Shown here in pieces: positions 9,801 through 64,000 of a DNA stretch of 64,000 nt. A model generated the notes under the pieces. It made no database searches. It was given only the letters and a program-made list of their open reading frames with translations, and was not told where the DNA came from. This stretch comes from Salinisphaera sp. Q1T1-3 (GTDB lineage Bacteria > Pseudomonadota > Gammaproteobacteria > Nevskiales > Salinisphaeraceae). The position numbers and the translations under genes were made by a program. Position 1 is the stretch's first letter. Each line of letters opens with the position of its first letter. The DNA lies in NCBI RefSeq assembly GCF_003602005.1, contig NZ_QZWD01000013.1, positions 1 to 64,000 on the forward strand. The letters are read 5' to 3'.

Positions 9801-11192
9801 TCAGTCGACCGTCGCCAGGGCCGGCGTCTCGTCTGCCGGCTCAGACGTTTTTATGCGGCCTCGCAGCGAATTATCCAAGGCCTCGGTGATCTCGACTTCG
9901 ATGAAATGGCCGGCCATGCGCGGATGGCCTTCGAAATTCACCCAGCGATTGGAATCCGTGCGGCCGGCCATCTGGCCGCCCCCGCGCTTGGATTCCCGCT
10001 CGACGAGCACGCGCTGGGTGGTGCCCACGAGATCATTCATGAACTGCCGATTGAAATCAGCGATGCGGTCCTGGACCTGTTTGAGGCGCTGTTTCTTGAG
10101 CTCGCGCGACTCGGTGTCCGGCATGTCGGCGGCCGGCGTGCCCGGGCGGGCGCTGTAGATGAACGAGAACGCCGCATCGAAACCGATCCGATCGACCAGC
10201 GCCATGGTGGCCGCAAATTCGGCTTCCCCCTCACCCGGATGGCCGACGATGAGATCGGTGGACAGACTGATGTCCGGCCGCACGGCACGCAGTTTCTCGA
10301 TGCGTGCGATGAAGTGCTCGACGCTATAGCCACGATTCATCAGGTTGAGCACCGTATTCGAACCCGACTGCACCGGCAGATGCAGATAATTGGCCAGCTT
10401 CGGCACCCGGGCATAGGCTTCGATCAGCGCGTCCGAGAACTCCAGCGGATGGCTGGTGGTGTAACGAATCCGCTCGATGCCCTCGATTTCGGCCACGAAC
10501 TCCACGAGCATCGCCAGGTCGCAGATCGAGCCGTCGGCCATCGGCCCGCGATAACCGTTGACGTTCTGGCCGAGCAGCGTGATCTCCTTGACGCCCTGCT
10601 CGGCGAGCTCGGCGACTTCCAGGATCACGTCGTCGAACGGCCGCGAGATCTCCTCGCCGCGGGTATAGGGCACCACGCAGAAGCTGCAGTATTTCGAGCA
10701 GCCTTCCATGATCGAGACGAACGCTGTCGCGCCTTCGGCCCGGGCCGGCGGCATGTGATCGAACTTGTCGATCTCCGGGAACGCGATATCGACGATGCCG
10801 GCACCGTTGTCGGCTATGTCGTCGAGCAGCTGCGGCAGGCGATGCAGCGTCTGCGGGCCGAAGACCATGTCCACGAACGGTGCGCGCTCGCGAATGACGT
10901 GGCCTTCCTGCGAGGCCACGCAGCCGCCGACCCCGATCACCAGATCCGGGTTGGCGTCTTTCAGCGGCTTCCAGCGGCCCAGCTGCGAGAACACCTTCTC
11001 CTGCGCCTTCTCGCGGATCGAGCAGGTATTGAGCAGGATGATGTCGGCCTCTTCCGGCGAGCCGACCCGTGTCGCGCCGCGATCCTTGGCCAGCACGTCG
11101 ACCATCTTGGCCGAATCGTATTCGTTCATCTGGCAACCCCAGGTGGCCACGAACACTTTCGGCGCGCTGTTGCTATCCACCGTTTCGGACAT
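9801..11192 (-). CDS. miaB: tRNA-2-methylthio-N6-dimethylallyladenosine synthase
   Basis: MiaB is a radical-SAM enzyme that methylthiolates i6A37 in tRNAs reading UNN codons. The 463-residue protein has the N-terminal UPF0004 domain with Cys residues in [16 protein letters not shown] and GGCVA, which bind the auxiliary 4Fe-4S cluster. The radical-SAM motif is C-x3-C-x2-C (GCSKYCSFC), and a C-terminal TRAM domain ends the protein. Start at MSETVDS (11192) fits the family; the upstream open frame belongs to no known domain. It is first in the miaB-phoH-ybeY-corC-lnt run. Confidence 0.97.
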
Positions 11193-45754: not shown

Positions 45755-46061
45755 GGCCTGTTGAGGTTTCGTTCGCGCGCCTTTTCGTCGAGAGACCGCA
45801 GTGTCCTGCAAGGCGCGAGTCGCCGGTCGTGGCGTGCCAAGATCCAGACTCGCAACGCCGCGGGGCGCCCATCGTCGATTTTTCATGGGCGGCCCAACCC
45901 TTCAGGACAAGTGCCCCAACATCAAAAACACGACGGCAATCCAGCGTTCTAGCACGCTGGCGCAGCATGACACGCTATGCGTGCGACGCCTCGTCTTGCC
46001 GCCCATCGTCAATTTCAGGGCGCACTCGGCGCGGACTCGCACGAAACCTCAACACGCCCTA
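45753..46061. repeat. Family 1 repeat, copy F (long form)
   Basis: This is a ~308-bp element in the same orientation as copy A: agggcctgttgaggtttcgttcgcg to cgcacgaaacctcaacacgccct. It is flanked by TA on both sides (ctaGGGCC...CGCCCtag). It lies between the dciA stop and the ABC exporter stop (convergent genes). Confidence 0.92.
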
Positions 46062-49536: not shown

Positions 49537-49834
49537 AGGGCCTGTTGAGGTTTCGTGCGAGTCCGCGCCAAGCGCTGTTCTGCGCAAGACGAGGCGTCGC
49601 ACGCATAGCGTGTCATTCTGCGCCAGCGTGCTGGAACCCTGTATTGCCGTCGTGTCTTTGATTTTGGGGCGCTTGTCCCTTCGGGTTGGGCCGCCCATGA
49701 AAAATCGACGATGGGCGTCCGGCGACGTTGCGAGCCTTGATCGCGGCACGCCACGATACGGCGACTCGCGCCTTGCCGGACACACGACGGTCTCTCGACG
49801 AAAAGGCGCTCGAACGAAACCTCAACAGGCCTTA
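49537..49834. repeat. Family 1 repeat, copy G (long form, inverted)
   Basis: About 298 bp from agggcctgttgaggtttcgtgcgag to ctcgaacgaaacctcaacaggcct, flanked ctTA...TAg. The ccctgaaactgacgatgggcgg segment after the left end is replaced, giving a slightly rearranged core. Confidence 0.92.
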
Positions 49835-50094: not shown

Positions 50095-51096
50095 TCACTT
50101 GGCCTCGAGATCGCGAATCACCTGACGCAACGCCTGGATCGGGCTGGCCGGATTCCAACGGACGCGCTCGGTCTCGGCGCGGCGATGATCGAACTCGGCC
50201 AGAAACGGCCCCAACGCCTCGACGTCACGAGCCAACGCCTGCCAGCGCCGCCCGAACTCATCGGAGGCCTGCGAGAGCTCGTCCGCCGCCACGGCATCCA
50301 GCAACTGATATCCCTCGGCGGTCCAGCGATTGACCGCCGGATCGGCCAGCAGATCCTCGCGCGAGAATCGCGACGCCGGTTTGTCCTGTTGCAGGAATTT
50401 CGTCGCGTACTCCTCGATGCCCGCAGCCTGATCGGGGCCGACGGGCAACCCGAGGTCCCGGGCGACACGCATCAATTGGCCACGCGGATCGGCCATCAGT
50501 CGATCGAAATCCACCACCGCACGCGGCCGACCTGCCGTGCGCGCGAAATAAGGCACCACGTTGACCAGCCATTCCATGTCGGACCAGACCTGTCGGCCAC
50601 GCTGCGGGTTGATCTTGCCGCGCGAGCGCGCGACCGACATGGGATTGCGCAAGGCGATCAAGTAGCGCGTATCCAGACCCAGGGCGGCGTGAATGCCTTC
50701 CCAGAACGGCATCGTGCGCAGGGTCCGCGAATACTTGTAGCCCCACAGCGGTGTGTTGCCGAACCGTGCGCCCAGCGTGGCCACGGCATCCGCCTGGATG
50801 GCCTTCATGCGCGGCGTCTCGAACTCGGCATCATCGAGCAGGCGCACGCTATGCCCACGAATCCCCAGCGCCGACTTCAGGCGCTTGCTGATCGCCAGCA
50901 CGTCGTTGTCCTCGAAGAACCCGGTGGGATTCTTGCCGCCGGCACGACGCAGATTGGCGCCGAGATCAACGCCGAGCGCCGACAGACCGCGCGTGATCGC
51001 ACTTGTCCCGCTGCGGCCGGCACCAAGCACGGCGACCACCGTCGAGCGCTCGGGATCCGGCGGCGGCACCACGGCCGCGGCATCGGCTTCAGACAT
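50095..51096 (-). CDS. Sulfotransferase family protein
   Basis: This 333-residue protein has the PAPS-dependent sulfotransferase fold. The 5'-phosphosulfate loop is VLGAGRSGTSAITRGL (near residue 24), and the 3'-phosphate segment is YLIALRNPMSVARSRGK, with the conserved Arg and Ser. The substrate is unknown. It is the last gene of the sphingolipid-type operon and overlaps the upstream oxygenase by 8 bp. Start ATG at 51096 has AGGAG upstream. Sulfation of a lipid or sugar made by this operon is an inference. Confidence 0.82.
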   Translation of the reverse strand: MSEADAAAVVPPPDPERSTVVAVLGAGRSGTSAITRGLSALGVDLGANLRRAGGKNPTGFFEDNDVLAISKRLKSALGIRGHSVRLLDDAEFETPRMKAIQADAVATLGARFGNTPLWGYKYSRTLRTMPFWEGIHAALGLDTRYLIALRNPMSVARSRGKINPQRGRQVWSDMEWLVNVVPYFARTAGRPRAVVDFDRLMADPRGQLMRVARDLGLPVGPDQAAGIEEYATKFLQQDKPASRFSREDLLADPAVNRWTAEGYQLLDAVAADELSQASDEFGRRWQALARDVEALGPFLAEFDHRRAETERVRWNPASPIQALRQVIRDLEAK

Positions 51097-51811
51097 CGCG
51101 GATCTCCTCGCCCTTGAGCCGGCCCTTGACGCGCCGGACCGCGGCACGCACCCGGTCGTTGATGACCACGATGAAGACCTTGCGATGCATGCCCTCGGGA
51201 CAGGTGATCTCGCGCACGCCGTGCCAGGATTTCGACTGCCGCTGGAACAGCAGGCTGTAGTTGCCCACGCTCTCGCCTTCGTAGGCGTCCGGAAAATCCT
51301 CGAATTCCGGCGCCGACTTGCGATCGAAGGCGCCGTGGTCGTCCAGAATCACGGTATCGCCGCCCCAATCCGGCGACCAGGTCTCCGGCGAGCTGAAGTA
51401 GAAGATATGCGAACCGAGCTTGCGCTGGGCATCGCAATGCGGCGAGACCGAAGCGCCTCGGGGCGCGTAGTGCCAGTGGAAATTGAGCTTGAACAGGCCG
51501 CGCCCGAACATCTTCTTGACGAAGTCGTAGTAGGCATCCGACTGCAGTTCGTCGATAAAGGCCTGCCAGTCATCGGAAATGCCCACCCGCGGTCGATATT
51601 CCAGCGAGTAGCGGTCGTGCGGTTTCTGCCCGTGCGAGCGTGCCTGGCCGAATTGCGGCGTCATGATCTCGGTGCTCGGCATGCTGGCCAGCAGCCGCGC
51701 ATAGCCTTCGTCGGTGAGCAGGCCGGCCGGATTGATCCAGGGATACGGGTCGGTCGCGCGGAAGGCCTTGCCATCCATGGCGGCAAGCTTGTCGAAGTCC
51801 AGATACGTCAT
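51089..51811 (-). CDS. 2OG-Fe(II) oxygenase-like protein
   Basis: This 240-residue double-stranded beta-helix protein has the iron triad His125-x-Asp127 (SPHCDAQ) and His197 (SWHGV), and the 2-oxoglutarate-binding Arg210 (MHRKVF). FYFSSPETWSPDWGGD resembles the prolyl-4-hydroxylase-type core. Its ATG overlaps the ELM1 gene stop (ATGA). A hydroxylase acting on a lipid, sugar or protein of this pathway is plausible but unproven. Confidence 0.82.
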   Translation of the reverse strand: MTYLDFDKLAAMDGKAFRATDPYPWINPAGLLTDEGYARLLASMPSTEIMTPQFGQARSHGQKPHDRYSLEYRPRVGISDDWQAFIDELQSDAYYDFVKKMFGRGLFKLNFHWHYAPRGASVSPHCDAQRKLGSHIFYFSSPETWSPDWGGDTVILDDHGAFDRKSAPEFEDFPDAYEGESVGNYSLLFQRQSKSWHGVREITCPEGMHRKVFIVVINDRVRAAVRRVKGRLKGEEIRDV

Positions 51812-52905
51812 GACGAGTGTCCAGTCGATTGACAGATCGCGGCAGCCGAGTCCATCGGCCGATCGCGTTCGAAGAGCGCGCGCACGGCCGACACGACCCG
51901 GGCCATATCGTCGGGCGGCGTTGCCGGCGACTCGGTGTCGACGAGCCCCGCATCGCGCAGCCCGGCGTGGAAAGCTGCGAAATCGCGGCGCGGCTTGTAC
52001 CAGCCGTTATAGACTAAAGCACGATGAATCGGCTTGACCATAGCCGGTAACGATCGTGGCGGCCGTATGGACGGCCATTCGAACAGTGTGACAGGCGCGC
52101 CCGTGGCCGCCGCTTCGGCCGGCAGAGAGGCCGAATCGCCGGTCACGAGGAAGCGTGCGCACAAGGCCAGAAATGCCGGATACGGGTTGTCCGGATCGTC
52201 GGCGCGCCAGGCATGAAAGTAATGGGGCACGGTCAGACCGGCGGCCAGCACATCGGCCGCCTCGCACGGCGTGCGTCGGCTCGTGGTGACCAGCAGCGAA
52301 CCGCCGGTCGCCTGTGCCATGGCGTTCGCGCGCTCGGCCAGGGCTCGGGCCGTGGTGGCATCGAAGCGATGGCTCGAACTCGTGCCACCCACCAGCACGC
52401 CGATCCAGGGGCCGGGCAGATGCGAAAGCCGGGGCCGCCAGGCACAAGCTGCGGCCTCGCGGGTTGCCGGCTCGACAACGTTGAGTGGCAGCGTGGTTCG
52501 CAACACGTTGGGCGCCGTCGGTACCCGGAACTGAGCACTCGTCACCACGAGATCGAAATACCGCGGGTTCATCTGCGTATGGAGCAGATGTACCAGTCGC
52601 GTGCGGTTGCCTGAGCGAGCCTTGATCCAGCGCGCCACGGGCGCAGCGCGACGCGAGGCCGCGATCACCAGATCCGGCCACGGCGGTTGCAGCGTCGCGG
52701 CGTCACGATCGAGCGTGAACGCATGCGCGCCGATCACTGGATTCGGCAGATGATTCAACACATTCCAGGACAACTGGCGTGTCTCGTACGGCCAGCCGAG
52801 TGCCTCGGCCAGCGCGATCATCTGCGCGTTTCCCCCGGCGCCCTCGCCGAGCAGCACCCAGACGTGCGGCGTCTCCGCGCCGGCTTCGCTCGCCTCAGCC
52901 GACAC
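51808..52905 (-). CDS. ELM1/GtrOC1-like family protein, single domain
   Basis: This protein belongs to the family annotated as mitochondrial fission ELM1 (DUF1022), a GT-B-like fold. Landmarks are VWVLLGEGAGGNAQMIALAEALGWP, IGVLVGGTSSSHRFD, LLVTTSRRTPCEA and FLVTGDSASLPAEAAATGAPV. With the GTG start at 52905 it has 365 residues; a GTG at 52962 would overlap the preceding gene by 68 bp. Bacterial members sit in envelope gene clusters and are thought to be glycosyltransferase-like. A homologous module is fused in the preceding gene. Confidence 0.8.
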   Translation of the reverse strand: MSAEASEAGAETPHVWVLLGEGAGGNAQMIALAEALGWPYETRQLSWNVLNHLPNPVIGAHAFTLDRDAATLQPPWPDLVIAASRRAAPVARWIKARSGNRTRLVHLLHTQMNPRYFDLVVTSAQFRVPTAPNVLRTTLPLNVVEPATREAAACAWRPRLSHLPGPWIGVLVGGTSSSHRFDATTARALAERANAMAQATGGSLLVTTSRRTPCEAADVLAAGLTVPHYFHAWRADDPDNPYPAFLALCARFLVTGDSASLPAEAAATGAPVTLFEWPSIRPPRSLPAMVKPIHRALVYNGWYKPRRDFAAFHAGLRDAGLVDTESPATPPDDMARVVSAVRALFERDRPMDSAAAICQSTGHSS

Positions 52906-55336
52906 GAACGCGGCTGTCCCCGGTCCGTGGCGTCTCGCTCTCGGCCTCGGCCGCCCGCTCACCGGGCAGCGGCAGCAGCGCCCGGATACGGCGCGCCAGC
53001 CATTCCGTTTCGTGCCATGCCGGCGGCCGCCAGCCCGTCAGCGAATCGCCGAGCATGCGGGCGACGCCCTGGTCCACCAGGGCATCGTGCAATTCCGGCA
53101 TGTTGCGACGCGGCACGAAGATCCGGCGTTCGACCAGGCGCGCGCAGATATATTGCAACCCTTCCTGCGGGCGCGCCGAACCGCGCTTGTTGAACCGGTC
53201 CTGCCCGGCCTGCGCGATGACCCGGTCCGCCAGGCGACGTCGCAGATTGGGCCGGGCCGTCGGCAGCGGGGCAATATAGACCGGCTTTCCGGTCGCCACC
53301 GCCTCGGCCAGCATCGACTCGCTTTCACCGGTCACGACCAGGACGTCGGCGTGTGCAAGATAGCCCAGATACGGGTTGCGGTCGGCCGAGTGTTCGCCCC
53401 AGCCAACCAGCGCATCGCGCTTGTACAACCCGGCGCGTATGGCATCCGTGGCCGACTGCGAGGTCCGCCGACTGGTCAGCACGGCAAGCTGCCCCGCGGC
53501 CGCATGGACCTGATCGCGGATGCGCTGGGTCAACGCCAGCGCGGTGTCATCGTCCAGGGCATGCTGGACGGTATCGCCGCCGACCAACCAGGCGACCCGC
53601 GGGCCTTCTGCGCCGGCGAACAGATCCGGCCATTCGGCCTCGGCCTCACGCAGCTGCGCGGTGGCTACCTTGCTCGGCGGCAGCAATGTCTCGATCTGAC
53701 GGGGATTCGGCGGCAGATCGAAGTGCTTGCAGACGATGGCGATGTTCTGGGTCTCGCCAATCCGCCCACCACGACGCCCCATGAGCACGAGTCGGGTCCG
53801 GGCCCGGCTGCGACGTGCCACAGCCCGCGCGGCCACGGCCGGCAGCCAGCCCGAGGCCACGATCACGTCCGGCCAGGGTGCGGCAAGTCCGTGCGGCCAT
53901 TCGGCTGCGCCGATGCCCAGCGCATCGCGCACGATCGCCCCGGCATAGGTCAGCGGCGACCGACGGATCGCGTGCTCGCTGACGGGCCAGCCAAGCGCCT
54001 GTGCCACGCCGAGTGTCTGGCTGCGATGGCCGGTCTTGTAATGCGTGAGCGCCCAGACCTGGGGATCGCGCCGCGCTAGTGCCCCCCCCGACCAGTACCA
54101 GACGCGCGGCTTGCGGATACGTCGCGGCTTGCGCACGACCAGACGCCAGTGACGATCCGGGGCCCGCGAGCCCGCCGAGACCAGCTGCTGGTACCACCAG
54201 ATCGCATCCGCCGGGGTGTCTCGTTCCTCGCTGGTATCCAGAGTGACCGCGACCACGACCGCACGCCGGGCGCGCGCGAACAGCGCATCGAGAATCCAGG
54301 GCGTATCGGTGTCGGGGATTTCGGCCAGACCGTCGGCGAACACCATGTCGACCGGTGCCGGCTCGGCGCGCGGGGCAACGAGATCGGCGAAATCGCACAT
54401 GGTGATTTCGATGTCCGCCATCGCCCGGCGCAGGCGCGCGCCGCGATCATAGCCGTAGTAGGCCGCGCGGCGCGCCCCAACGTCGGTGGCCGCGGCCACG
54501 AAATCCGCCAGCCGCGCCCGCGCGGGGGCCGCAAAATCGCCGATGTCGAAACGGCGCTTGAGCAGGGGCGATGGCTGCGCGCTGTTCCATACCTGAAAGC
54601 CAGCCGCATCGGCCTCGGCCTCGATCCGGTGCCAGATATCGGCCGCGGGATTGGCACCGTAGACGAAATCCTGCGGCGTCGGCCGCCAGGGCTGTGTGTG
54701 AATGGTGGTGTAGTGCACCACTTTCGACGCGTCCGCGACATATTCGGCATCGCGCGCGTTCCAGGCGTTGTCCAGATCACCCCAGAGATCGGCCTCGCGC
54801 ATGCGCCGCTCGAGCTCGCGGTTGCCGATGCGCCGTGCGCTGCGGCCGTTCCACAGACGAACCATCCGGGCACAGTCGATGAGCATGACCGACGTGTCGT
54901 GATCGTTGATCGACAGCACGCCGGCCTCCCCCATGTCGGCATCGAACAGCTCGGCCGGGTCACGCAGATAGATCTGATCGGTGTCGTTGTAGATCGCACG
55001 GCCCGTGCCGCCGGCCAGCTCGGGGATCATGAAGCGATAGTTCGTGAAACCGGTCAGCCACAGCCGTCGCTCGAACCCCTCGAAATCCTTCATGAGGTAG
55101 ATTTCATAGGTCCGGGCCGGATCGCGCACACGCTCGATCGAATAGACGAACGCCCGCTCCGCACGGAACTGCACGGCCTCCGTACCGAGAAAGATACGCA
55201 CCGGCGGCGCCTCCGACGGCGTCACATCGGCGTGCGGCGCCAGCGTGATGCACAACGGCGCACGCTGGCCGGAGTCGGCATGGCGCAAATCGCCCTCGAT
55301 CAGCGTTTCAGCGACACGTTTGATACGAATGGCCAC
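52895..55336 (-). CDS. Three-module fusion: GT-A-like / methyltransferase-like / ELM1
   Basis: This is an 813-residue protein with three regions. Residues ~45-225 resemble a GT-A glycosyltransferase: VRIFLGTEAVQFRAE, then a DxD metal motif in YNDTDQIYLRD (Asp118, Asp120). Residues ~270-405 look like a Rossmann methyltransferase (AYYGYDRGARLRRAM, MVFADGLAEI), though no clear GxGxG is seen. Residues ~427-790 form an ELM1 domain (VWALTHYKTGHRSQTLGVAQALGWP, LVGGDTVQHALDD, VTGESESMLAEAVATGKPV). Start GTG at 55336 has AGGTAAG upstream. It precedes the single-domain ELM1 gene. Activities are inferred. Confidence 0.8.
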   Translation of the reverse strand: MAIRIKRVAETLIEGDLRHADSGQRAPLCITLAPHADVTPSEAPPVRIFLGTEAVQFRAERAFVYSIERVRDPARTYEIYLMKDFEGFERRLWLTGFTNYRFMIPELAGGTGRAIYNDTDQIYLRDPAELFDADMGEAGVLSINDHDTSVMLIDCARMVRLWNGRSARRIGNRELERRMREADLWGDLDNAWNARDAEYVADASKVVHYTTIHTQPWRPTPQDFVYGANPAADIWHRIEAEADAAGFQVWNSAQPSPLLKRRFDIGDFAAPARARLADFVAAATDVGARRAAYYGYDRGARLRRAMADIEITMCDFADLVAPRAEPAPVDMVFADGLAEIPDTDTPWILDALFARARRAVVVAVTLDTSEERDTPADAIWWYQQLVSAGSRAPDRHWRLVVRKPRRIRKPRVWYWSGGALARRDPQVWALTHYKTGHRSQTLGVAQALGWPVSEHAIRRSPLTYAGAIVRDALGIGAAEWPHGLAAPWPDVIVASGWLPAVAARAVARRSRARTRLVLMGRRGGRIGETQNIAIVCKHFDLPPNPRQIETLLPPSKVATAQLREAEAEWPDLFAGAEGPRVAWLVGGDTVQHALDDDTALALTQRIRDQVHAAAGQLAVLTSRRTSQSATDAIRAGLYKRDALVGWGEHSADRNPYLGYLAHADVLVVTGESESMLAEAVATGKPVYIAPLPTARPNLRRRLADRVIAQAGQDRFNKRGSARPQEGLQYICARLVERRIFVPRRNMPELHDALVDQGVARMLGDSLTGWRPPAWHETEWLARRIRALLPLPGERAAEAESETPRTGDSRVRVG

Positions 55337-55413
55337 GACTTACCTGCCCGTTGCACTCACAGCGATTGATGCCGCGCCATTATACGACCGCATGCACCCA
55401 TTGATGCACGCGA

Positions 55414-56352
55414 TCATGCGTAACGTCGATGCACCTGTTTGGGCCAGCGCCGTTTCAGGCAGAGCCACTGGTCCGGATTCCGCGTGATCTCGGCCTCGAA
55501 CAGCGCGTTGATCTGACGCGACATGTCTAGAACGGCCTCATCGCGATTTGCGCAGGTCGCGCCCGCGGCAATCGGCGGATGGATGTTCACGCGGAACTGC
55601 GCGCCCGGGAGACGCTCGGCGATCACCGGCACCAGATCACAGTCGAAGCGCAGTGCCAGACGGGCCGGTGCGGTGTTGGTCATGGCCGGCTCGCCGAAGA
55701 ACGGCACGGATTCCCCGCTGTCCAGTCGCGTATCCACCGTCAGCCCGATGGACTGGCCCCTGCCCAGCGAGCGCATGAAGGCCCGCATCGCCCCGTCGCG
55801 CGAGACCAGCGGTGCCGCGAAGACACCCCGCAATCGATTGAGCAGACGATCGACGTAAGGATTCTGCTCGGGCGCATAGATCACCGGGATGACCAGTCCG
55901 TACTGGCGCCCGACCAGCGGCGCGAGCTGCCAGGGGCCGATATGGGCGGTGACGAAAACGGTTGGCCGCTCGGGGCTCGGCGTGACCGCGCCGGGCAGCT
56001 CGCGAAATTCGATCCGGCGTGACCGGGCCCGCCAGATACGGCCGAGATTGGCCAGCTCGGCCATGGCCACGCCGACATTGGCGAACGAGGCTCGCGTCAG
56101 GTGGGTGAGCCAGCCGGCATCGGCGTTGGCGAAAACCACGTTGAGATTGCGTCGGACCTTGTCGAGGCGCGGCGAAAAACGGCCGAACACCTCGCCCAGA
56201 CGCGCGCCGAGCGCCAGCGCCAGCCGCAACGGCAGGATACGGAAAAGCCCGACCACCGCGGCCACGCCGGCCGCCTCGGCCAGCCAGATCGGCTGGCGCA
56301 ACCACGCCGGCACCTGATGGCTCCGGCGCGTGGAAAAATAGAACCGCGGCAT
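55414..56352 (-). CDS. LpxL-like lysophospholipid acyltransferase with altered active site
   Basis: This is a 312-residue member of the Kdo2-lipid A acyltransferase (LpxL/HtrB) family. One hydrophobic N-terminal stretch precedes the acyltransferase domain; the RRNLNVVF and R-D-G-A-M-R-A-F segments are typical. In LpxL the catalytic motif is His-x4-Asp/Glu. Here it reads HIGPWQ, with Gln142 in the acidic position after His137. It may be inactive, use a different mechanism or act on another acceptor. The operon position between sphingolipid-type genes suggests an N- or O-acylation of the lipid. Confidence 0.82.
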   Translation of the reverse strand: MPRFYFSTRRSHQVPAWLRQPIWLAEAAGVAAVVGLFRILPLRLALALGARLGEVFGRFSPRLDKVRRNLNVVFANADAGWLTHLTRASFANVGVAMAELANLGRIWRARSRRIEFRELPGAVTPSPERPTVFVTAHIGPWQLAPLVGRQYGLVIPVIYAPEQNPYVDRLLNRLRGVFAAPLVSRDGAMRAFMRSLGRGQSIGLTVDTRLDSGESVPFFGEPAMTNTAPARLALRFDCDLVPVIAERLPGAQFRVNIHPPIAAGATCANRDEAVLDMSRQINALFEAEITRNPDQWLCLKRRWPKQVHRRYA

Positions 56353-56449
56353 AGCCCTCGTGCTCCTCCGAGTTCCGTGCGCTGCAGGATGGCCCGCGGC
56401 GTGACGCTCTCCCCCGAGTCGACGTCAGCCGCAGGCCGTAATGTGGAAC

Positions 56450-57211
56450 TTAGGCCATCGCCGCCCGATAACGTTCCTCCCAGGCACGCTGATTGGCCAG
56501 CGCGTCACGGAAGTAGCCGGTACGGCGGAGCGCAGCGATCATCGCCCGTGAAACAGCCTTGCCGGGCATGCCCATCGGCCGTTCGATATCGAACAGCAGC
56601 ACGGCGCGATAGCCGTCGGTTTCGTTCCAGACTTCATGCGGATACGTGTCGTCGAAGAAGAACATGCCGCCTTCCTCCCAGGCACAGTCCACGTCGTCGA
56701 CCTGAATCAGGCAACGCTCGGGCGAGTCGGGCACGCGCAGACCGATATGACAGCGCACCAGTCCCTTGGTCACGCCGCGGTGTCGCGGAATATGCTTGCC
56801 CGGGCCCAGGATGGAAAAGAACGCATTGGAAAGCCCTGGCACCTGTTCGAGCGCGGCCGCGGTCTGCGGGCACAGCTCGCAGCCGAAGTCCATGCGCGTG
56901 CCGAACCCCCAGAGCATGAAGGTCTTCCACTGATCGTCGGTCGAGATGCGCGCCTGGTCCGGGCTGATCTCCTGAAAGCTCGGCAGGGCCGCCCGCCGCT
57001 CGAGCAGCGCATCGAGTTCGTCACGCATGACCGGCCACTGGGCACGCAGGTTCTCGGCCCACGGGAACAGGGCGTTATCGAGCACCGGCGTGTCCGGAAT
57101 CTTGGATTGCGACGACAGGAAGTCCATCAACGATCCGCGGAACAGTCGCTTGCCGACCTTCTTGATCTTCTTGCGCCGGAGATCGGAAAAACCCTTGCCG
57201 TCTGCACTCAT
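56450..57211 (-). CDS. Aspartyl/asparaginyl beta-hydroxylase family protein, LpxO-like
   Basis: This is a 253-residue member of PF05118, the non-heme iron, 2-oxoglutarate enzymes. LpxO members hydroxylate the 2-position of lipid A secondary acyl chains. Landmarks are ILGPGKHIPRHRGVTKG, VRCHIGLRVP and FDDTYPHEVWN, where His155 and His192 are likely iron ligands; the C-terminal RAVLLFDIERP is conserved. ATG at 57211 is chosen over an upstream TTG. In this operon a 2-hydroxylation of a ceramide fatty acid is an attractive inference. Confidence 0.84.
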   Translation of the reverse strand: MSADGKGFSDLRRKKIKKVGKRLFRGSLMDFLSSQSKIPDTPVLDNALFPWAENLRAQWPVMRDELDALLERRAALPSFQEISPDQARISTDDQWKTFMLWGFGTRMDFGCELCPQTAAALEQVPGLSNAFFSILGPGKHIPRHRGVTKGLVRCHIGLRVPDSPERCLIQVDDVDCAWEEGGMFFFDDTYPHEVWNETDGYRAVLLFDIERPMGMPGKAVSRAMIAALRRTGYFRDALANQRAWEERYRAAMA

Positions 57212-57258
57212 GATCAACCTCGATTAAGACGTCCGAAGGCACGGACGAGCGCGACCGG

Positions 57259-58017
57259 TCAGCGACGCCCGCGACCGGCCATGATGCGGATATAGGCGCG
57301 AGACGGTAGCAACCGCAGGATACCCGCGGCAAATACCAGACTTGACGGCCCGCGCCAATACGGGATTCGACGGACGATCGCGCGGCTCATCCGCTCGACC
57401 GCCTGCGTCATGGCCATGCGCGGCCATTTCACGCGCTTGCCGGGCTTGGTGACGAAGCCCGGCTCGAGCAGCGTGACATCGATGCCGGTCTCCGCCAGAT
57501 CGATCGCCAGGCTCTCGGTGAAACGGGCGACGCCGGCCTTGGCCGCCGAATAGGCCGCCGCGTTCGGCAACCCCCGCGTGGCGGCCAGGCTGCCCATCAC
57601 CACGATATGACCGCGACCGGCCGCCTGCATCGGGGCCAGCACACAGCCGACGCTGTTCACGACCCCTTCGACGTTGAGCCGCAGGATATCGGCGATCGTC
57701 GCGGCATCATAAGCCGTCATGTCCGTGCGACTGCCGCCGCCGGCGTTGGCCACGAGCCGGGTAATGGCACCGGTATGCGCGGTCGCCTCGGCCAGCGCGG
57801 CCGCCAGTGTCTCACGATCGGTGACATCGGCCACGACAGCCCGGGCCTGGCCACCGGCCACCGTGATTTCCTCGACCAGTGTTTCGAGCAGCGCAGCGCG
57901 GCGAGCCAGCACGATGACCCTGTCGCCCCGGCTCGCCAGCGAGATGGCCAGTGCGCGCCCGATGCCTGAAGAGGCGCCGGTCACGAGCGTGACCTCCGAC
58001 GGTGCGGGCCGTGCCAT
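57259..58017 (-). CDS. Short-chain dehydrogenase/reductase
   Basis: This is a 252-residue classical SDR. The cofactor motif is TGASSGIG near residue 14, NAG follows around residue 91, and the active site is Ser...Y-S-A-A-K (near residues 143-159). A hydrophobic C-terminal region is present. It lies 21 bp after spt in the sphingolipid-type operon, so a 3-ketosphinganine or other lipid carbonyl reduction is possible; the CerR-like epimerase in the same operon may do this instead. Confidence 0.82.
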   Translation of the reverse strand: MARPAPSEVTLVTGASSGIGRALAISLASRGDRVIVLARRAALLETLVEEITVAGGQARAVVADVTDRETLAAALAEATAHTGAITRLVANAGGGSRTDMTAYDAATIADILRLNVEGVVNSVGCVLAPMQAAGRGHIVVMGSLAATRGLPNAAAYSAAKAGVARFTESLAIDLAETGIDVTLLEPGFVTKPGKRVKWPRMAMTQAVERMSRAIVRRIPYWRGPSSLVFAAGILRLLPSRAYIRIMAGRGRR

Positions 58018-58038
58018 GGCTGCCGGCCGCCGTGGTGC

Positions 58039-59238
58039 TCAGCCGGCCTCGCGCTGCATTTTCTGCAGGGCGATGGCGGTGTCGGCGAAGGCACCGATCA
58101 TGGTCTCGATCTGTGCGGTCGTATGACCGGCCGACAGGCTGGCGCGCACGAGACATCGGCCGTTGGGCGCCGCCGGCGGCAGCATCAGGTTGGTATATAC
58201 GCCGCGATCGAGCAGGCCCTGCCACATCCCCAGCGCCGCCTCACGCGAATCGTAGACCGTGGCGACCACCGGCCCCGGCGCTGCCCCCAGCTCGAAGCCG
58301 AGATTCGCGAGGCCGCGATGAAGCCGGGTCGCATTGTCCCAGATCCGTTCGCGCAGGGTGTCGTCGTCGCGCAGCCGCGCCAGCGCCGCGCGCGTGGAGG
58401 CGATCACCGAGGGCACCGAGGACGCCGTGAAGATATAGGGCCGGCTGGCATACCGAATCATGTCCAGATCCGTATGCGGGCTCACACAGAAACCGCCTGC
58501 GGAGCCGAGCGATTTCGAGAACGTGCCGACCACGAAATCAACCGCGTCGAGCACCCCCTCGGATTCGACGACGCCGCGCCCTTTTGCCCCGACGATGCCC
58601 ATGGAATGGGCTTCGTCGACCATGATGTACGCGCCGTGCTTCTTGACCACGCCGACGATCTCGGCCAATGGCGCAGCGTCGCCGAGCATGCTGTAAATGC
58701 CCTCGACCACAACCAGCGTCTGTCGGGCCGTCTCGCCCAGTCGCTTGAGCCGCCGATCCAGGTCGGCCGGATCGTTGTGCTTGAATCGCAGTGTCTTGGC
58801 ACCGCCCAGACGCAGGCCGTCGTAGATACTGGCATGACAATCGGCATCCAGCATGACGGTGTCGCGCGGGCCGACCAGCGTCGAGAGCATGCCCAGATTG
58901 GCCTGATAACCGGTCGAAAAGACCAGCCCGCGACGCATGCCGTAGAAATCGGCCAACTCCTGCTCGAGCGCGATATGGCCGGCATACGAGCCGTTGGCCA
59001 TGCGCGAGCCGGTGGTGCCGGTGCCGAGCGTGCGCACTGCATCCACCGCGGCCTCGACACAGTTCTCGTCGAAGGTCAGCCCAAGATAATTGTTGCTGCC
59101 GGCCAGGATGGTGCGTTGCCCGCGAATGATCGCTTCGGTCGACGACAGCACCCGGTCGAGCGGCACGGCCAACGGCTCGATGCCGGCCTCTTTCATCTGT
59201 CGCCGGACATCGGCGATCGGTTCGAACTTGTCGAACAG
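58039..59238 (-). CDS. spt: Serine palmitoyltransferase (Spt)
   Basis: Spt condenses serine with an acyl thioester to 3-oxosphinganine, the first step of sphingolipid synthesis. The ~399-residue alpha-oxoamine synthase-type PLP enzyme has His135 (DADCHASIYDG), Asp208 and His211 (VDEAHSMG) and the Schiff-base Lys242 (TFSKSLGS). GTGTTGSRMANGSY is typical of bacterial Spt. No ATG/GTG/TTG start occurs at the expected N-terminus: CTG at 59238, 2 bp after the acpR stop, gives the family start LFDKFEPI; the first ATG is at 59196. The frame is open upstream into cerR. Confidence 0.87.
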   Translation of the reverse strand: MFDKFEPIADVRRQMKEAGIEPLAVPLDRVLSSTEAIIRGQRTILAGSNNYLGLTFDENCVEAAVDAVRTLGTGTTGSRMANGSYAGHIALEQELADFYGMRRGLVFSTGYQANLGMLSTLVGPRDTVMLDADCHASIYDGLRLGGAKTLRFKHNDPADLDRRLKRLGETARQTLVVVEGIYSMLGDAAPLAEIVGVVKKHGAYIMVDEAHSMGIVGAKGRGVVESEGVLDAVDFVVGTFSKSLGSAGGFCVSPHTDLDMIRYASRPYIFTASSVPSVIASTRAALARLRDDDTLRERIWDNATRLHRGLANLGFELGAAPGPVVATVYDSREAALGMWQGLLDRGVYTNLMLPPAAPNGRCLVRASLSAGHTTAQIETMIGAFADTAIALQKMQREAG

Positions 59239-59240
59239 GC

Positions 59241-59489
59241 TTACGCGTCGATCGCCTCGTTCAGCGCTCGGGTCAGCTGATCCATCGTCTCCACGTCCGG
59301 CAGAAAGTTCAGCGGAATCGAGGTGTCCAGACGGTCCTCCAGCTCCATCATCACTTCCATCACCTGCACCGAATCCAGCCCCATGTCGTCGACCAGGCGT
59401 GTGGCCGGCGTGATCGTGAGCTGATCCGGCACGTACGGACTCAGCAGCTCGATCAGATGCGCGTAGATCTCGTCGTAGCGACTGCTCAT
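59241..59489 (-). CDS. acpR: Acyl carrier protein (AcpR-type)
   Basis: This is an 82-residue acyl carrier protein. The phosphopantetheine site is Asp39-Ser40 in MGLDSVQVMEV, in the usual helix II context. Upstream, GAGGA provides a ribosome-binding site for the ATG at 59489. In Caulobacter a dedicated ACP supplies the acyl group to Spt; the position between cerR and spt fits that. The gene is wholly nested in another frame of the cerR-spt reading frame. Confidence 0.9.
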   Translation of the reverse strand: MSSRYDEIYAHLIELLSPYVPDQLTITPATRLVDDMGLDSVQVMEVMMELEDRLDTSIPLNFLPDVETMDQLTRALNEAIDA

Positions 59490-59517
59490 CGGAATGGTCC
59501 TCGTCGTCGGGCGTGCG

Positions 59518-60444
59518 TTGTTCGCGCGCCCAGTCACAGGTGAGCGCCAGCCCGCGGGCCAGCGTGATGGTCGGGCGCCAGTCGAGCCGCTCGGCCAGCG
59601 GTTGGGTGTCGGCGACCCAGTCGCGATGCGTCAGCTCGCGTGCCTTGCCGGGCGTGAGCATCGGCGTATAGCCGGCCCACTGCGCCAACCGCTGATTGGC
59701 ACGCGCGGCCATCTGCAATCCCCGTGCCGAAACGCCCACACGACGAATGGGAGCACCGCGCAGACGACGAGCCTCGGCCAGCACATCGGCCCAGCGGTAG
59801 CCGCCGCGCTTGCCGTCGCTGATCTCGTAGACACCGCTGGCGCGCGCACCGTCAGCCAGCCAGGCACATACCGCGGACGCCAGATCATCGACATGCAACA
59901 TCGAGAACCGGGCCCCCGCGTCGCCGGGCGTCACCGCCAGTCCACGGCCCATCAGGGCGAACAACGGACCGAGCGCCGTATCACCGGCGCCGTAGACCGC
60001 CGGTGGCCGGAGCACGAGTGCCGGCGCAGGCGCATCGACGCCCGCCAGCAGGCACTCCATCGCGTATTTCGATCGCGCGTAGTCGGACACGTCGGGTTCA
60101 CGCGCCGCCAGCGACGAGAGCGCGAGCACCGGCAGCCCGCGCTGTGCCGCGGCCGCGAACAGATGTGCGCTGCCGTAGACGTTGACGCGCTCGAAGTCGG
60201 CCAGATCGCGACCACGCACGGCACCCGCGGCATGCACCACGGCATCGGCCCGTGCCACGAGGCCATCGAGCCCTTGCCCGCTCGTCAGATCGCCGCGCAC
60301 CGGCGCCGCGCCAAGTGCGCGCACCTCGCCCGCCGCTTCGGGGCGACGCACCAACGCGTTGACCGAATGCCCGGCCTGGATCAGGGCTCGGACGACGGCG
60401 CGCCCGATGAAACCGGACGCGCCGGTAACGGCGACACGCGCCAT
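59518..60444 (-). CDS. cerR: NAD-dependent epimerase family, ceramide reductase-like (CerR)
   Basis: This is an extended-SDR with TGASGFIGRAVV (residue 7 onward), the active-site Tyr122-x3-Lys126 (DYARSK) and a C-terminal substrate domain. About 309 residues belong to the family. In Caulobacter CerR reduces the 3-keto group of oxidised ceramide. It starts 4 bp after the acyl-AMP ligase stop. The given end (59518) is the last residue I consider family-like; no in-frame stop follows until the end of spt. Confidence 0.8.
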
Positions 60445-60448
60445 GAGA

Positions 60449-62224
60449 TCAGCCTGCCTGGCGTTCGCTGGCGTCCGACGCAGTCGTGGCAGGCGCCTGG
60501 CGCGCGTGCACGCGGTCCGTGAGCCGCTGGATGTAATCGTTACGCGCACCGGCACGCGACAATTTGCCCGAGGAGGTGCGCGGCAGCGTGTGCGGCGCCA
60601 CGGCCTCGACCAGGCACTCGACGCCGAATTCGCGCCGCATCAGCCCTTCGAGCCGGCCGATCAGCTCACGCCGGGCGGTCGTTTCACGCACACGGCACTG
60701 GATGACGAGGACCGCCGCGTCGTGGCCGTCCTCCGACGGCGCGGCGAACGCCAGTGCGTCGCCGGGACGCAGCTCGGGCTGCGCCTCGGCCAGCCATTCG
60801 AGGTCCTGCGGCCAGATATTGCGGCCGTTGACGATGATCAAGTCCTTCGCCCGGCCGGTGATGACGATGCGACGGCCGATCCGATAGCCCAGATCGCCGG
60901 TGTCCAGCCAGCCGTCATCCGAGAGCACGCGCGCGGTCTCCTCGGGGCGCTGGAAGTAACCCGACATGACACTCGGGCCACGCACATGCACGGCGCCGAC
61001 ACAGCGTTCGCCGAGCGCCTCGCCCTCGTCGTCACGAATTTCGAAATCGTATTCGGGCAACACCTCGCCACAATCGACGAAGCGGACCGTCCGGCCGGCC
61101 TGATCGGCTTCGGCCGGGACGGCCCTGCGCGTATCGGCCAGTGCTTCGGCATCGATGGTGTCGGTCGAAAGCCCCACATCCAGCGGTGCGAAACTGATCG
61201 CCAGCGAACACTCGGCCATGCCGTAGCAGGCCACGAAGGCGCGCGCATCGAAATGCGCCGGGGCAAGCGTTTCGGCGAACCGGCCCAGCGAATCCGGACG
61301 GATCGTTTCAGCGCCGGCGCCGGCGATGCGCCAGCTCGACAGATCGAAATCGTCGGCATTGTGGCGGATACGACGCGCGCAGAGCTCGTAGCCGAACGAG
61401 GGGCTGAACGAGATGGTGCCGCGATTGCGGCTGATCAGCGACAGCCACTGGCGCGGCCGCATGGCGAAATCGCGCGTGGCCAGATAGTCGACCGACCGCT
61501 GCGAGGTCAGCGCGGCCAGCATGAAACCGACCAGCCCCATGTCGTGGTATAGCGGCAGCCAGGAGACCAGACGATCATCGGCGCGCATCTGCACGCCCAG
61601 CTCCAGAATGCTCGACAGGTTCTGCATGACCTGGGCCTGGCTGATGACCACGCCACGCGGGAACTGGGTGCTGCCCGAGGTGTACTGGAGATAGGCGGTC
61701 CGCGTGACATCCGGCGCGGCCAGCGGCGATTCGCTGGGCGGCAGCGCCTCGAGCGACTCGTAGGTGCCAAGATGCGCGAGCGTCATGCCCTCGGCCGCGT
61801 CGGTCAGAAAGCTCATGAAGTCTTCGGGCGCCAGTGCCACATCGGCCTGGCAGCCGGCCAGCAGCGAGCGCAGCTGGCGAGTGTAGGCATCCCGACTGCC
61901 AAGCCCCACCGTGACCGGCAGCGGCACCGGCACGTAACCGGCGTACTGGCAGGCAAAGAAAGCGATCATGAAACCGGGCAGCGTATCGGCCACCAGCGCC
62001 ACGCGCGCGCCTTCGTCGAGGTTGAGCCCGATCAAGCGCGAGGCGGTCTCGCGAGCGCGATCGCGCAGCTCGCGATAACTCAGGGCGTGGGCCAGCTCGC
62101 CCCGGCCGTTGTAGAAGTTGAAGCCCGTCTCGCCCTCGCCTGCGTAGTCCAGCGCGTCGCCCAGTGTGGCAAAGTCGGCGCGACGCATCGGCAACCGGTG
62201 TTCGGTGGGCGTTGGCTTCATCAT
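60449..62224 (-). CDS. aasR: Acyl-AMP ligase / acyl-ACP synthetase (AasR-type)
   Basis: This is a 591-residue member of the fatty acyl-AMP ligase superfamily. The ATP/AMP signature is YTSGSTQFPRG (residues 181-191). Other motifs are SWLPLYHDMGLVG, the acyl-adenylate YGMAECS, DTGDLGY and the C-terminal LPRTSSGKLSR with the A10 Lys. With an ACP gene in the operon it probably loads a fatty acid on AcpR for Spt. It is first in the minus-strand operon, divergent from the bCerS-like gene. ATG at 62221 is an equal alternative start. Confidence 0.88.
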   Translation of the reverse strand: MMKPTPTEHRLPMRRADFATLGDALDYAGEGETGFNFYNGRGELAHALSYRELRDRARETASRLIGLNLDEGARVALVADTLPGFMIAFFACQYAGYVPVPLPVTVGLGSRDAYTRQLRSLLAGCQADVALAPEDFMSFLTDAAEGMTLAHLGTYESLEALPPSESPLAAPDVTRTAYLQYTSGSTQFPRGVVISQAQVMQNLSSILELGVQMRADDRLVSWLPLYHDMGLVGFMLAALTSQRSVDYLATRDFAMRPRQWLSLISRNRGTISFSPSFGYELCARRIRHNADDFDLSSWRIAGAGAETIRPDSLGRFAETLAPAHFDARAFVACYGMAECSLAISFAPLDVGLSTDTIDAEALADTRRAVPAEADQAGRTVRFVDCGEVLPEYDFEIRDDEGEALGERCVGAVHVRGPSVMSGYFQRPEETARVLSDDGWLDTGDLGYRIGRRIVITGRAKDLIIVNGRNIWPQDLEWLAEAQPELRPGDALAFAAPSEDGHDAAVLVIQCRVRETTARRELIGRLEGLMRREFGVECLVEAVAPHTLPRTSSGKLSRAGARNDYIQRLTDRVHARQAPATTASDASERQAG

Positions 62225-62697
62225 CGATCTACCTGTCCTGTAACGAGCACTGCAACGAAGTTAAAGCGCGCCGGTGCACGACCGTTTCGTCGCGCGAACA
62301 TCGAAGGCACGGGAAGCCGTCGCATGCGTGCAATCATCGAGCAGCGAACTGGGCGTGTCGGCCGAGCCGGACGGGCATGTCGAATGGGTCACGACACTGC
62401 AAGCTTTGCCAAATCACGCTGTTCGAACCGAAGTTGCACCAGACATCAACTGCGAAATCCTACTGCAAAGCGCATCAGTTTGCACTAGTGGCAACAGTCG
62501 ATCCGGGCGTTTACCCGGTTTTCCGGCATCCTGGCCGGACCGATGTCCGTGCAATCTTCGCACGCTGTGCGACGACGTTTTCCTGCGACGGGATTGTGAA
62601 CCATCGTGGGTTAAGAAATCGTTCAGAGCGAGCACACCTGCTATGCGTTGCGGGCTCGCGTATATTGCCGCCTGTCAGCCGCAACCCGAAATCCGCC
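62225..62697. promoter_or_regulatory. Divergent control region between aasR and bCerS-like genes
   Basis: This 473-bp non-coding stretch is clearly less GC-rich than its neighbours, especially 62390-62650. Promoters for both divergent transcripts should lie here. A TATATT at 62661-62666 could be a -10 for the plus-strand gene, but no good -35 is present. Reading frames crossing it lack family similarity. Confidence 0.45.
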
Positions 62698-63849
62698 ATG
62701 GCCGCACCGCACCCCGATCGCGCTGTCCAGATCGTCCCTGTTGCCGGCAAGCGCGAACTGACGCGCTTTCTGAAAGTTCCGCACACTGTCTACGCGAAGC
62801 GCCGCGAGTGGCGCGCGCCGTTGATGCTCGAGCGACGCATGCATCTGTCGGAAAAACAGAATCCGGCGTTCGAGCATCTAACCTGGCAAGCCTGGATCGC
62901 GGTGCGCGACGGTCGCGACATCGGCCGGATCACCGCGCAGATCGATGCGCTGCGCACCGCCGACGAAACCGAGCCGACCGGTTTTTTCGGGATGTTCGAA
63001 TGCATCGATGACGCCGACGCCGCAGCCGCGCTGATGGCCACGGCCGAGGCCTGGCTGGCCGAACGCGGCATGCACACCATCCAGGGCCCGTTCAATCTGA
63101 CGATCAATGATGAATGCGGCCTGCTCGTCGACGGCTTCGAAACCCCGCCGATGGCGATGATGCCGCACGGCCGGGACTACTACGCCGGGCTGGTCGAACA
63201 GTCCGGTTACCACACCGCCGTCGACATGCTCGCGTTCTGGCTCGACCTGCCGTTCACCCGGCCGCGTGCCATGCAGCGACTGCTCTCACGCTATGCCGGC
63301 CGGATACGGATCCGCCCGATCGAGCGCAAGCACTACGACCGCGAACTGGATACTCTGCGCGACATCTTCAACGACGCCTGGGCCAACAACTGGGGCTTCG
63401 TACCGTTCACCCAGGCCGAGTTCCGCGATCTGGGCCATACGCTCAAGCTACTGATTGCCGACGATCTCGTGCAGATCGCTGAAGTCGATGGACACCCGGC
63501 GGCCTTCATCGTCGGCCTGCCCAATATCAACGAAGCCGCCCGGGATCTCGGCGGACGGCTCGGCCCGATCGGCATCGGCAAATTGCTGTGGCGCCTCAAG
63601 GTCCGTTTTCCGAAGACCGTGCGTGTGCCGCTCATGGGCGTGCGCCAGGCCTATCAGGGCGGTCCGCTGGGTGCGGCGCTGGCCTTTGGGGTGATCGATG
63701 CCATGGAAACCGCGTTCTGCCGACACGGCGCCTCGGGCAGCGAGCTGTCCTGGATTCTCGCCGACAATCACGGCATGCGCGATATCATCGAGGCATTGGG
63801 CGGCCATGCCTACAAGACCTATCGCATGTACGAAAAGACATTGACATGA
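62698..63849 (+). CDS. Bacterial ceramide synthase-like GNAT protein (bCerS)
   Basis: This is a 383-residue GNAT-fold acyltransferase of the group that includes the Caulobacter bacterial ceramide synthase. Landmarks are VPHTVYAKRREWRAPL near the start, GPFNLTINDECGLLVDGFETPP, the NNWGFVPFT segment and WILADNHGMRDIIEALGG at the C-terminus. Start at MAAPHPDR (62698) is the first well-placed ATG. It would N-acylate a long-chain base. It is coupled to the next gene by ATGA. Confidence 0.83.
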   Translation: MAAPHPDRAVQIVPVAGKRELTRFLKVPHTVYAKRREWRAPLMLERRMHLSEKQNPAFEHLTWQAWIAVRDGRDIGRITAQIDALRTADETEPTGFFGMFECIDDADAAAALMATAEAWLAERGMHTIQGPFNLTINDECGLLVDGFETPPMAMMPHGRDYYAGLVEQSGYHTAVDMLAFWLDLPFTRPRAMQRLLSRYAGRIRIRPIERKHYDRELDTLRDIFNDAWANNWGFVPFTQAEFRDLGHTLKLLIADDLVQIAEVDGHPAAFIVGLPNINEAARDLGGRLGPIGIGKLLWRLKVRFPKTVRVPLMGVRQAYQGGPLGAALAFGVIDAMETAFCRHGASGSELSWILADNHGMRDIIEALGGHAYKTYRMYEKTLT

Positions 63850-64000
63850 CGCATGATACGCGCGCGCCGGCCGAACGCTGGGATGTCATCGTTCTGGCCG
63901 GCGATCGTGGCGCCAACGACCCGGTGGCCAGAGCCACGGGCGCCGGTTGCAAGGCGATGGCGCCGATCGCGGGCAAGCCCCTGCTCGCCCGCGTGCTCGA
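63846..64000 (+). CDS. Nucleotidyltransferase family protein (partial)
   Basis: This is the 5' part of a gene cut by the window end. The first ~51 residues include WDVIVLAGDRGANDPVARATG and KAMAPIAGKPLLARVL, the start of a MobA/GlmU-like NTP-transferase Rossmann domain. Its ATG overlaps the bCerS stop (ATGA), so the two are translated together. In ceramide gene clusters such an enzyme could activate a head group; this is an inference. Confidence 0.75.
   Translation, partial: MTHDTRAPAERWDVIVLAGDRGANDPVARATGAGCKAMAPIAGKPLLARVL

Follow-up and report, generated by a model that had tools for sequence, protein, structure and literature searches.

A predicted CerR-Spt fusion read across a nested acpR gene in a ceramide locus of Salinisphaera

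At the end of a 64,000-nucleotide stretch of Salinisphaera sp. Q1T1-3 (the window; positions 1-64000 of the 119,774-base contig NZ_QZWD01000013.1 from a 3.87-Mb genome) lies a gene cluster that is, judged by its protein families, a ceramide (sphingolipid) biosynthesis locus. The cluster comprises 15 genes in two divergent, tightly packed units and extends past the window to about position 67,058 of the contig. Separated by small gaps or overlaps, the minus-strand unit holds genes for a sulfotransferase-like protein, a 2-oxoglutarate (2OG) oxygenase-like protein, two ELM1 proteins, an LpxL-like acyltransferase, a member of the Asp/Arg hydroxylase family, a short-chain dehydrogenase/reductase (SDR), the serine palmitoyltransferase Spt, an acyl carrier protein (ACP), the reductase CerR, and an acyl-AMP ligase; the plus-strand unit opens with the gene for a bCerS-like N-acyltransferase. 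When all open frames were recomputed from the DNA, cerR and spt were found in one frame of 801 codons with no stop between them (58039-60444, minus strand; calculated 84.5 kDa), and the ACP gene acpR (59241-59489, minus strand) was found wholly inside it in a different frame, overlapping the codons for residues 319-402 of the fusion. A first-pass annotation had proposed a divergent pair of transcripts with the core ceramide set of Spt, AcpR, acyl-AMP ligase, CerR and bCerS. These genes are indeed present and tightly packed, with Spt scoring 610 bits against NF047599 and the ligase 789 bits against NF006624, and that reading of the gene content stands; the fusion of cerR and spt with acpR nested in it had been overlooked.

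The fused frame falls into three parts. The CerR module (residues 1-308; 59521-60444) matches the Pfam family Epimerase (PF01370, 80 bits) and carries TGASGFIG at residue 7 and YARSK at residue 122. It is followed by a linker (residues 309-400; 59245-59520) that from residue 319 onwards corresponds to acpR read in another frame and that is predicted to be disordered, and by the Spt module (from residue 401; 58039-59244), in which the start-codon site of relatives reads GTA and the pyridoxal phosphate (PLP) lysine motif GTFSKS stands at residue 640. The nested acpR encodes 82 residues and has its own ATG, an upstream Shine-Dalgarno (SD)-like GAGGA and the GLDS attachment motif (PF00550, 34.7 bits). 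In an AlphaFold model of the 801 residues, the predicted local distance difference test score (pLDDT) is mostly 91-98 for the CerR module, below 50 for linker residues 310-391 and 393-396, and mostly above 90 for Spt, whose first helix (403-419) is modelled at about 86-88; with a predicted template modelling score (pTM) of 0.57, the model gives no firm arrangement of the domains. The Rossmann, YxxxK, PLP lysine and DEAHS motifs are all present in the fusion, and we take their roles to be those customary in the respective families.

Among 14 genomes of the genus, eight bear spt, and in six of these eight the loss of the spt start codon, a frame shared by CerR and Spt and the absence of the cerR stop coincide. 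The six fused loci (the window; G001, from Salinisphaera sp. GH4; G005, from Salinisphaera hydrothermalis C41B8; G007; G009; and G013) give a contiguous, stop-free alignment, with acpR wholly inside the outer frame and both frames open and conserved in all of them. In relatives the initiator of Spt often forms an ATGA-type overlap with the acpR stop. The equivalent codon is GTA in three of the fused genomes, as in the window, CTG in two and CCC in one, and all 17 other loci among the 23 compared keep ATG, GTG or TTG there. Between the start of acpR and Spt codon 12 inclusive, the spt frame contains no ATG, GTG or TTG in any of the six; the next standard starts are found at codons 13, 13, 17, 17, 25 and 27, and three of the six have one standard start 12-16 codons before acpR, in the tail of CerR. 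The ATG of acpR is kept in all six, with an SD-like site on its 5' side (calculated pairing energy -3.3 to -5.9 kcal/mol). The distance from CerR (W289) to acpR takes four values (76, 82, 91 and 103 nt) and one genome has a 42-nt longer gap before Spt, and the phase is kept throughout. A tree of 18 Spt rows groups the six fused Spts in a single clade, with support of 88/87 and recovery in 90% of 200 bootstrap trees. The two unfused Salinisphaera loci, G003 and G004, retain the ATG, and in both of them the CerR frame stops short of Spt. The CerR match of G004 is split over two frames (about 9862-10805 of its stretch), which reflects either a true frameshift or a fault of the assembly.

The same features were looked for in wider collections. 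The named set was limited to the best 80 of 586 confirmed loci. In 78 of these, a start codon stands no more than 6 nt from the aligned position; the other two, both from Salinisphaera, lack one and are identical with two of the six fused loci described above. An upstream cerR on the same strand accompanies 55 of the 80, and only the two Salinisphaera loci have a CerR frame that runs free of stops into Spt; a stop always precedes spt in the loci that have both an spt start and a nearby cerR (53/78). CerR lies in the frame of Spt in 19 of these 53 unfused loci. Among 19 further class-level loci, in 16 of which CerR was found, no CerR frame running into Spt was detected.

Whether the linker frame is under selection was approached through the composition of acpR. 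When acpR was recoded synonymously with the codon usage of the respective genome, the spt frame remained open in 0.2-7.7% of trials, depending on which of the six genomes was used. At acpR codon positions where a final T would create a stop in the spt frame, none of 94 codons in the six genomes ends in T, compared with 47 of 287 at safe sites; in 57 unfused loci of low third-position T (spt T3 <0.15) the corresponding counts are 84 of 926 and 489 of 2670. Loci with no such T make up 6/6 of the fused and 18/78 of the unfused ones (T3 <0.20; Fisher p 0.0003, not corrected for relatedness). This test counted 113 of 119 unfused loci, the rest having no usable ACP match of 50 codons; the order, class and named locus sets may contain the same genomes twice. 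The ratio of nonsynonymous to synonymous variation (pN/pS) in the linker frame is 2.21, which is uninformative because the acpR frame dominates it. For Spt codons 2-16 the ratio is 0.31, and for codons 27-380 it is 0.22; the N-terminus of Spt, upstream of nearly every standard start, therefore appears to be maintained as protein.

From these data we consider it quite probable that the cell produces Spt solely as part of a cytosolic CerR-linker-Spt protein and that translation of AcpR starts internally. Several observations weigh against this. The support for the fused clade is moderate, and as the six genomes are related, tests on them are not independent. Avoidance of T before GA, AA or AG is also seen in unfused loci (9% vs 18%) and is thus partly general, and the unfused G004 is likewise open through acpR, for which the expectation is 3.7%. 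An open frame alone is weak evidence, as two unfused loci of the class have a 1248-nt open Spt frame upstream by chance; these two gammaproteobacterial spt loci keep an intact ATG and call for caution in reading fusions from open frames. In Caulobacter, a periplasmic location of CerR was obtained by two assays (PMC11087976), which does not fit a fusion to Spt. Further points come from CTG codons and SD-like sites near the old spt start: Spt codon 3 is CTG in each of the six genomes, in two of them the ATGA overlap of relatives reads CTGA, and SD-like sites precede codon 1 in G013 (-12.1 kcal/mol), in G005, where codon 1 is CTG (-9.3 kcal/mol), and in the window (-5.9 kcal/mol), the first two being stronger than any before acpR. 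All this would suit the principal competing explanation, in which Spt remains a separate protein, of 42.8 kDa by calculation, whose translation is coupled to the acpR end and begins at a non-standard codon, likeliest the codon-3 CTG or, for two genomes, a CTG in first position. Bacteria initiate only very weakly at CTG, and GTA does not serve as a start at all. The pairing calculated before codon 3 amounts to 0 to -4.8 kcal/mol and is zero in two of the six; in G001 there is no SD-like site before codon 1 or codon 3, and 44 nt separate the CTG from the preceding acpR stop. Since a CTG start also leaves the loss of the CerR stop and the phase kept in all six unexplained, we regard separate initiation of Spt as unlikely.

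Still lower in our estimate stands the possibility that the fusion is made and then cut in its linker, so that the working enzymes are separate: the linker is predicted to be disordered (pLDDT <50), but even with cutting there would be one translation product with acpR nested in its gene and both enzymes in the same compartment. That Spt begins downstream and has lost its N-terminus, at the ATG of codon 17 in the window or the GTG of codon 27 elsewhere, seems very improbable, for although such codons exist, codons 2-16 show the protein-like conservation given above, the sequence LFDKF is identical in all six, and in alignments with solved Spts the stretch corresponds to their N-terminus. The least credible of the alternatives is a -1 frameshift near the end of acpR that would yield an AcpR-Spt fusion instead; relative to acpR, spt is indeed in the -1 frame in each of the six, but the missing cerR stop would remain unexplained, and we rejected this candidate as no slippery heptamer of the type X XXY YYZ was found in the acpR frame of any of the six. 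An open frame arising by chance was likewise rejected, because one and the same set of six genomes shows the start loss, the missing cerR stop and the shared phase together.

The assignment of the individual enzymes was assessed by profile and structure searches. The first-pass annotation had named placement of the PLP enzyme with KBL, BioF or HemA as what would speak against Spt; this identity was rejected, as Spt models clearly outscore the others in the profile search (312 bits with a cut-off of 426 for the bioF model; 610 bits with a cut-off of 500 for the NF047599 Spt equivalog) and the nearest solved structures are bacterial Spts. The Spt module is 49% identical to Sphingomonas Spt (2jg2 / 2x8u) over nearly its whole length, and these solved proteins are stand-alone enzymes, unlike the Salinisphaera fusion. 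A genome search with Spt and CerR queries revealed no second cerR or spt of comparable similarity, the two other matches to the Spt query being 36% and 30% identical. By family, the CerR module would be an NAD-dependent epimerase/NDUFA9-type reductase, and its matches in the PDB include complex I subunit 9 chains. The ligase gene, aasR (60449-62224, minus strand), exceeds the NF006624 cut-off of 600 bits for fatty acyl-AMP ligases, and together with the ACP beside spt it is predicted to form a specialised ACP/acyl-ACP synthetase pair, an assignment at family level from which the AcpR/AasR specificity is extrapolated. The bCerS-like protein (62701-63849, plus strand) has no match in Pfam or NCBIfam; its AlphaFold model (mean pLDDT 89.6) predicts a tandem GNAT fold, with the tandem GNAT N-acetyltransferase 7q3a as top Foldseek match (E 5.7e-15), and a relative of it was found in the flank of spt in 54 of 89 loci, a number that counts two genomes twice.

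Next to spt lies a classical SDR (57259-58017, minus strand; PF00106, 158 bits), which among solved sequences comes closest to general keto reductases and dehydrogenases and could be a second reductase. Farther along the same strand follow the Asp/Arg hydroxylase family member (56450-57211; PF05118, 164 bits), the LpxL-like acyltransferase (55414-56352; PF03279, 138 bits), a long ELM1-domain protein (52895-55336; PF06258, 179 bits at residues 436-699) with about 430 N-terminal residues lacking a Pfam match, a second ELM1-domain protein (51808-52905; PF06258, 210 bits), the 2OG-Fe(II) oxygenase-like protein (51089-51811; PF13640, 25.8 bits) and the sulfotransferase-like protein (50095-51096; PF13469, 21.9 bits). 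The long ELM1 protein aligns over nearly its whole length in all nine related stretches compared. As regards these putative decoration genes, the earlier calls of an SDR, an LpxL-like protein and two ELM1 proteins are supported, whereas the matches for the sulfotransferase and the 2OG oxygenase stay below their Pfam cut-offs (27 in both cases); the latter gene is itself conserved as part of the cluster. The hydroxylase had been called LpxO-like, and its family is borne out, although it scores 227 bits with OlsC and 116 bits with LpxO, both under cut-off; it is described here as an OlsC/LpxO-like acyl hydroxylase.

On the plus strand, the bCerS-like gene is followed by a nucleotidyltransferase gene that starts inside the window (63846-64000) and ends at 64655 on the contig (NTP_transf_3, PF12804, 49.6 bits; TIGR03552, 27.5 bits, below cut-off, a weak similarity to CofC). 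Beyond the window lie a kinase with a diacylglycerol kinase (DAGK) domain (65137-66108 on the contig; DAGK_cat, 43.6 bits) and the last gene of the unit (66105-67058 on the contig), which has no Pfam match. The suggestion that genes past position 64000 be checked for head-group enzymes led to genes for enzymes of that type. Directly past the cluster, on the strand opposite to the plus-strand unit, lies lpxC (67478-68398 on the contig; PF03331, 374 bits), followed by ftsZ and ftsA. At the other side, the window contains two inverted copies of a 173-bp interspersed repeat that are 90% alike (45827-45999, minus strand; 49584-49756, plus strand); at least 40 copies of about 143-181 bp and 86-100% identity are present in the genome (40 of 245 candidates scored). 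A search of the genome for 16S sequence gave no match.

All 15 genes were matched (E up to 1e-6) in each of nine related stretches, seven from Salinisphaera and two from other members of the family, and this recurrence argues that the cluster is more than a chance assembly. It is kept in all eight spt-bearing Salinisphaera genomes and in two relatives. Among the 14 genomes of the genus, bCerS occurs in nine, and the sulfotransferase-like gene occurs in the same eight as spt and in no other; in the ninth genome with bCerS (G010) the contig ends about 550 bases upstream of that gene, so that the spt side is out of view. In G003, G004 and G016 the match positions point to about 2.4 kb of extra DNA between the nucleotidyltransferase and kinase genes. 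Of 12 more distant named spt loci, seven have all five core genes, two an LpxO-like gene and two an ELM1 match, and none of the sulfotransferase-like, 2OG, LpxL-like or SDR genes was found in these 12. lpxC is the gene for the committed step of lipid A synthesis. It was matched in five of the nine related stretches and also lies beside the cluster in G010. Of the four stretches in which it was not matched, three break off inside the final gene of the cluster or shortly beyond it; the fourth, from G001, shows no lpxC over the 2.4 kb that follow the cluster, and lpxC was for that reason rejected as a constant neighbour. The sphingolipid of Caulobacter has been reported to help survival without lipopolysaccharide (PMC12275187).

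Strong Spt matches were obtained in 21 of 369 genomes drawn from the class (E up to 1e-110) and in 36 of 85 genomes of the order (E up to 1e-100). The earlier remark that sphingolipids are rare in this class was therefore overstated, all the more as gammaproteobacterial ceramide genes have already been published (PMC9386255, PMC11324152). In Caulobacter crescentus, aasR-cerR-acpR-spt correspond to CC_1165-1162 and cerS to CC_1154 (PMC11324152, PMC9386255). The Salinisphaera locus has the same five functions, with the first four genes in the same order and cerS on a separate transcript; the genes of C. crescentus are described as separate, whereas cerR and spt of Salinisphaera form one frame with acpR inside. 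Like CC_1154, the bCerS gene of the window lies on a transcript apart from spt, the likeness resting on fold and linkage. The nucleotidyltransferase and the DAGK-domain kinase resemble by family the ceramide phosphoglycerate (CPG) genes CC_1153 (CofC-like) and CC_1160 (ceramide kinase) (PMC11324152), and it is a guess that the last plus-strand gene is the equivalent of CC_1161. Other sphingolipid gene sets of gammaproteobacteria are the ceramide/CPG clusters of Azotobacter vinelandii and Pseudomonas luteola and the spt of E. coli B, for which no fusion is described in the available text (PMC11324152, PMC9386255); relative to these, Salinisphaera has in addition the SDR, acyl hydroxylase, LpxL-like, ELM1, 2OG and sulfotransferase-like genes. 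In a literature search covering mainly open-access papers, no CerR-Spt fusion, no study of Salinisphaera sphingolipids and no acpR overlap were found. The cerR-spt fusion with nested acpR looks new.

For nested genes of this kind, rnpA and rpmH of Thermus are reportedly a case of overprinting on the same strand, and they share with acpR and its surrounding frame the arrangement of a gene lying wholly inside another in a different frame. In Salinisphaera, by contrast, the outer frame apparently formed when two genes on either side of an existing one became fused, so that the new coding sequence would be a linker and not a new protein.

Translation of the fusion, the internal start of acpR, the order of the reactions and the lipid product are what we infer from the DNA, and the following scheme is proposed. 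Ribosomes starting at cerR would read the acpR region in the frame not used by acpR and continue into spt; the product would be a single cytosolic chain of some 800 residues with CerR, a disordered linker of about 90 residues and Spt. A second initiation within the gene, in the acpR frame, would yield AcpR from the same stretch of DNA. AasR would load AcpR, Spt would condense acyl-AcpR with serine, and the tethered CerR could then immediately reduce the resulting long-chain base, drawing on NAD(P)H of the cytosol. The second acyl chain would be added by the divergently transcribed tandem-GNAT protein bCerS. The locus would produce ceramide, which is then probably decorated to a phospho- or glyco-sphingolipid.

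The scheme bears on a disagreement about the pathway, which concerns whether reduction of the long-chain base precedes or follows the second acylation, and in which compartment CerR acts, the cytosol or a periplasm free of NADH (PMC11087976, PMC11324152). In Caulobacter, mCherry fusions with permeabilisation and beta-lactamase fusions assigned CerR to the periplasm but Spt and bCerS to the cytoplasm; an order in which acylation comes first was proposed, the authors noting the disagreement and the lack of free NADH in the periplasm (PMC11087976). Spt uses acyl-AcpR (PMC9386255). A CerR tethered to Spt, which needs cytosolic acyl-AcpR, should itself be cytosolic in the species with the fusion, and the fusion speaks for a cytosolic CerR in this Salinisphaera clade; by itself it proves neither a reduction-first order nor the same arrangement in Caulobacter. 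On balance we lean towards the view that this is a dual-coding gene, with acpR lying whole inside a CerR-Spt fusion that it serves, that the linker was overprinted on acpR after loss of the cerR stop and the spt start, and that the tether keeps CerR cytosolic so that 3-ketosphinganine can be reduced while it is being formed, contrary to the periplasmic, acylate-first model. The gene would be an unusual case of a fusion around and over a third gene, and annotation procedures that forbid long overlaps may well miss or split it. If the proposal is true, the CerR-Spt fusion puts both activities on one chain and would be a ready reagent for testing the order of the steps.

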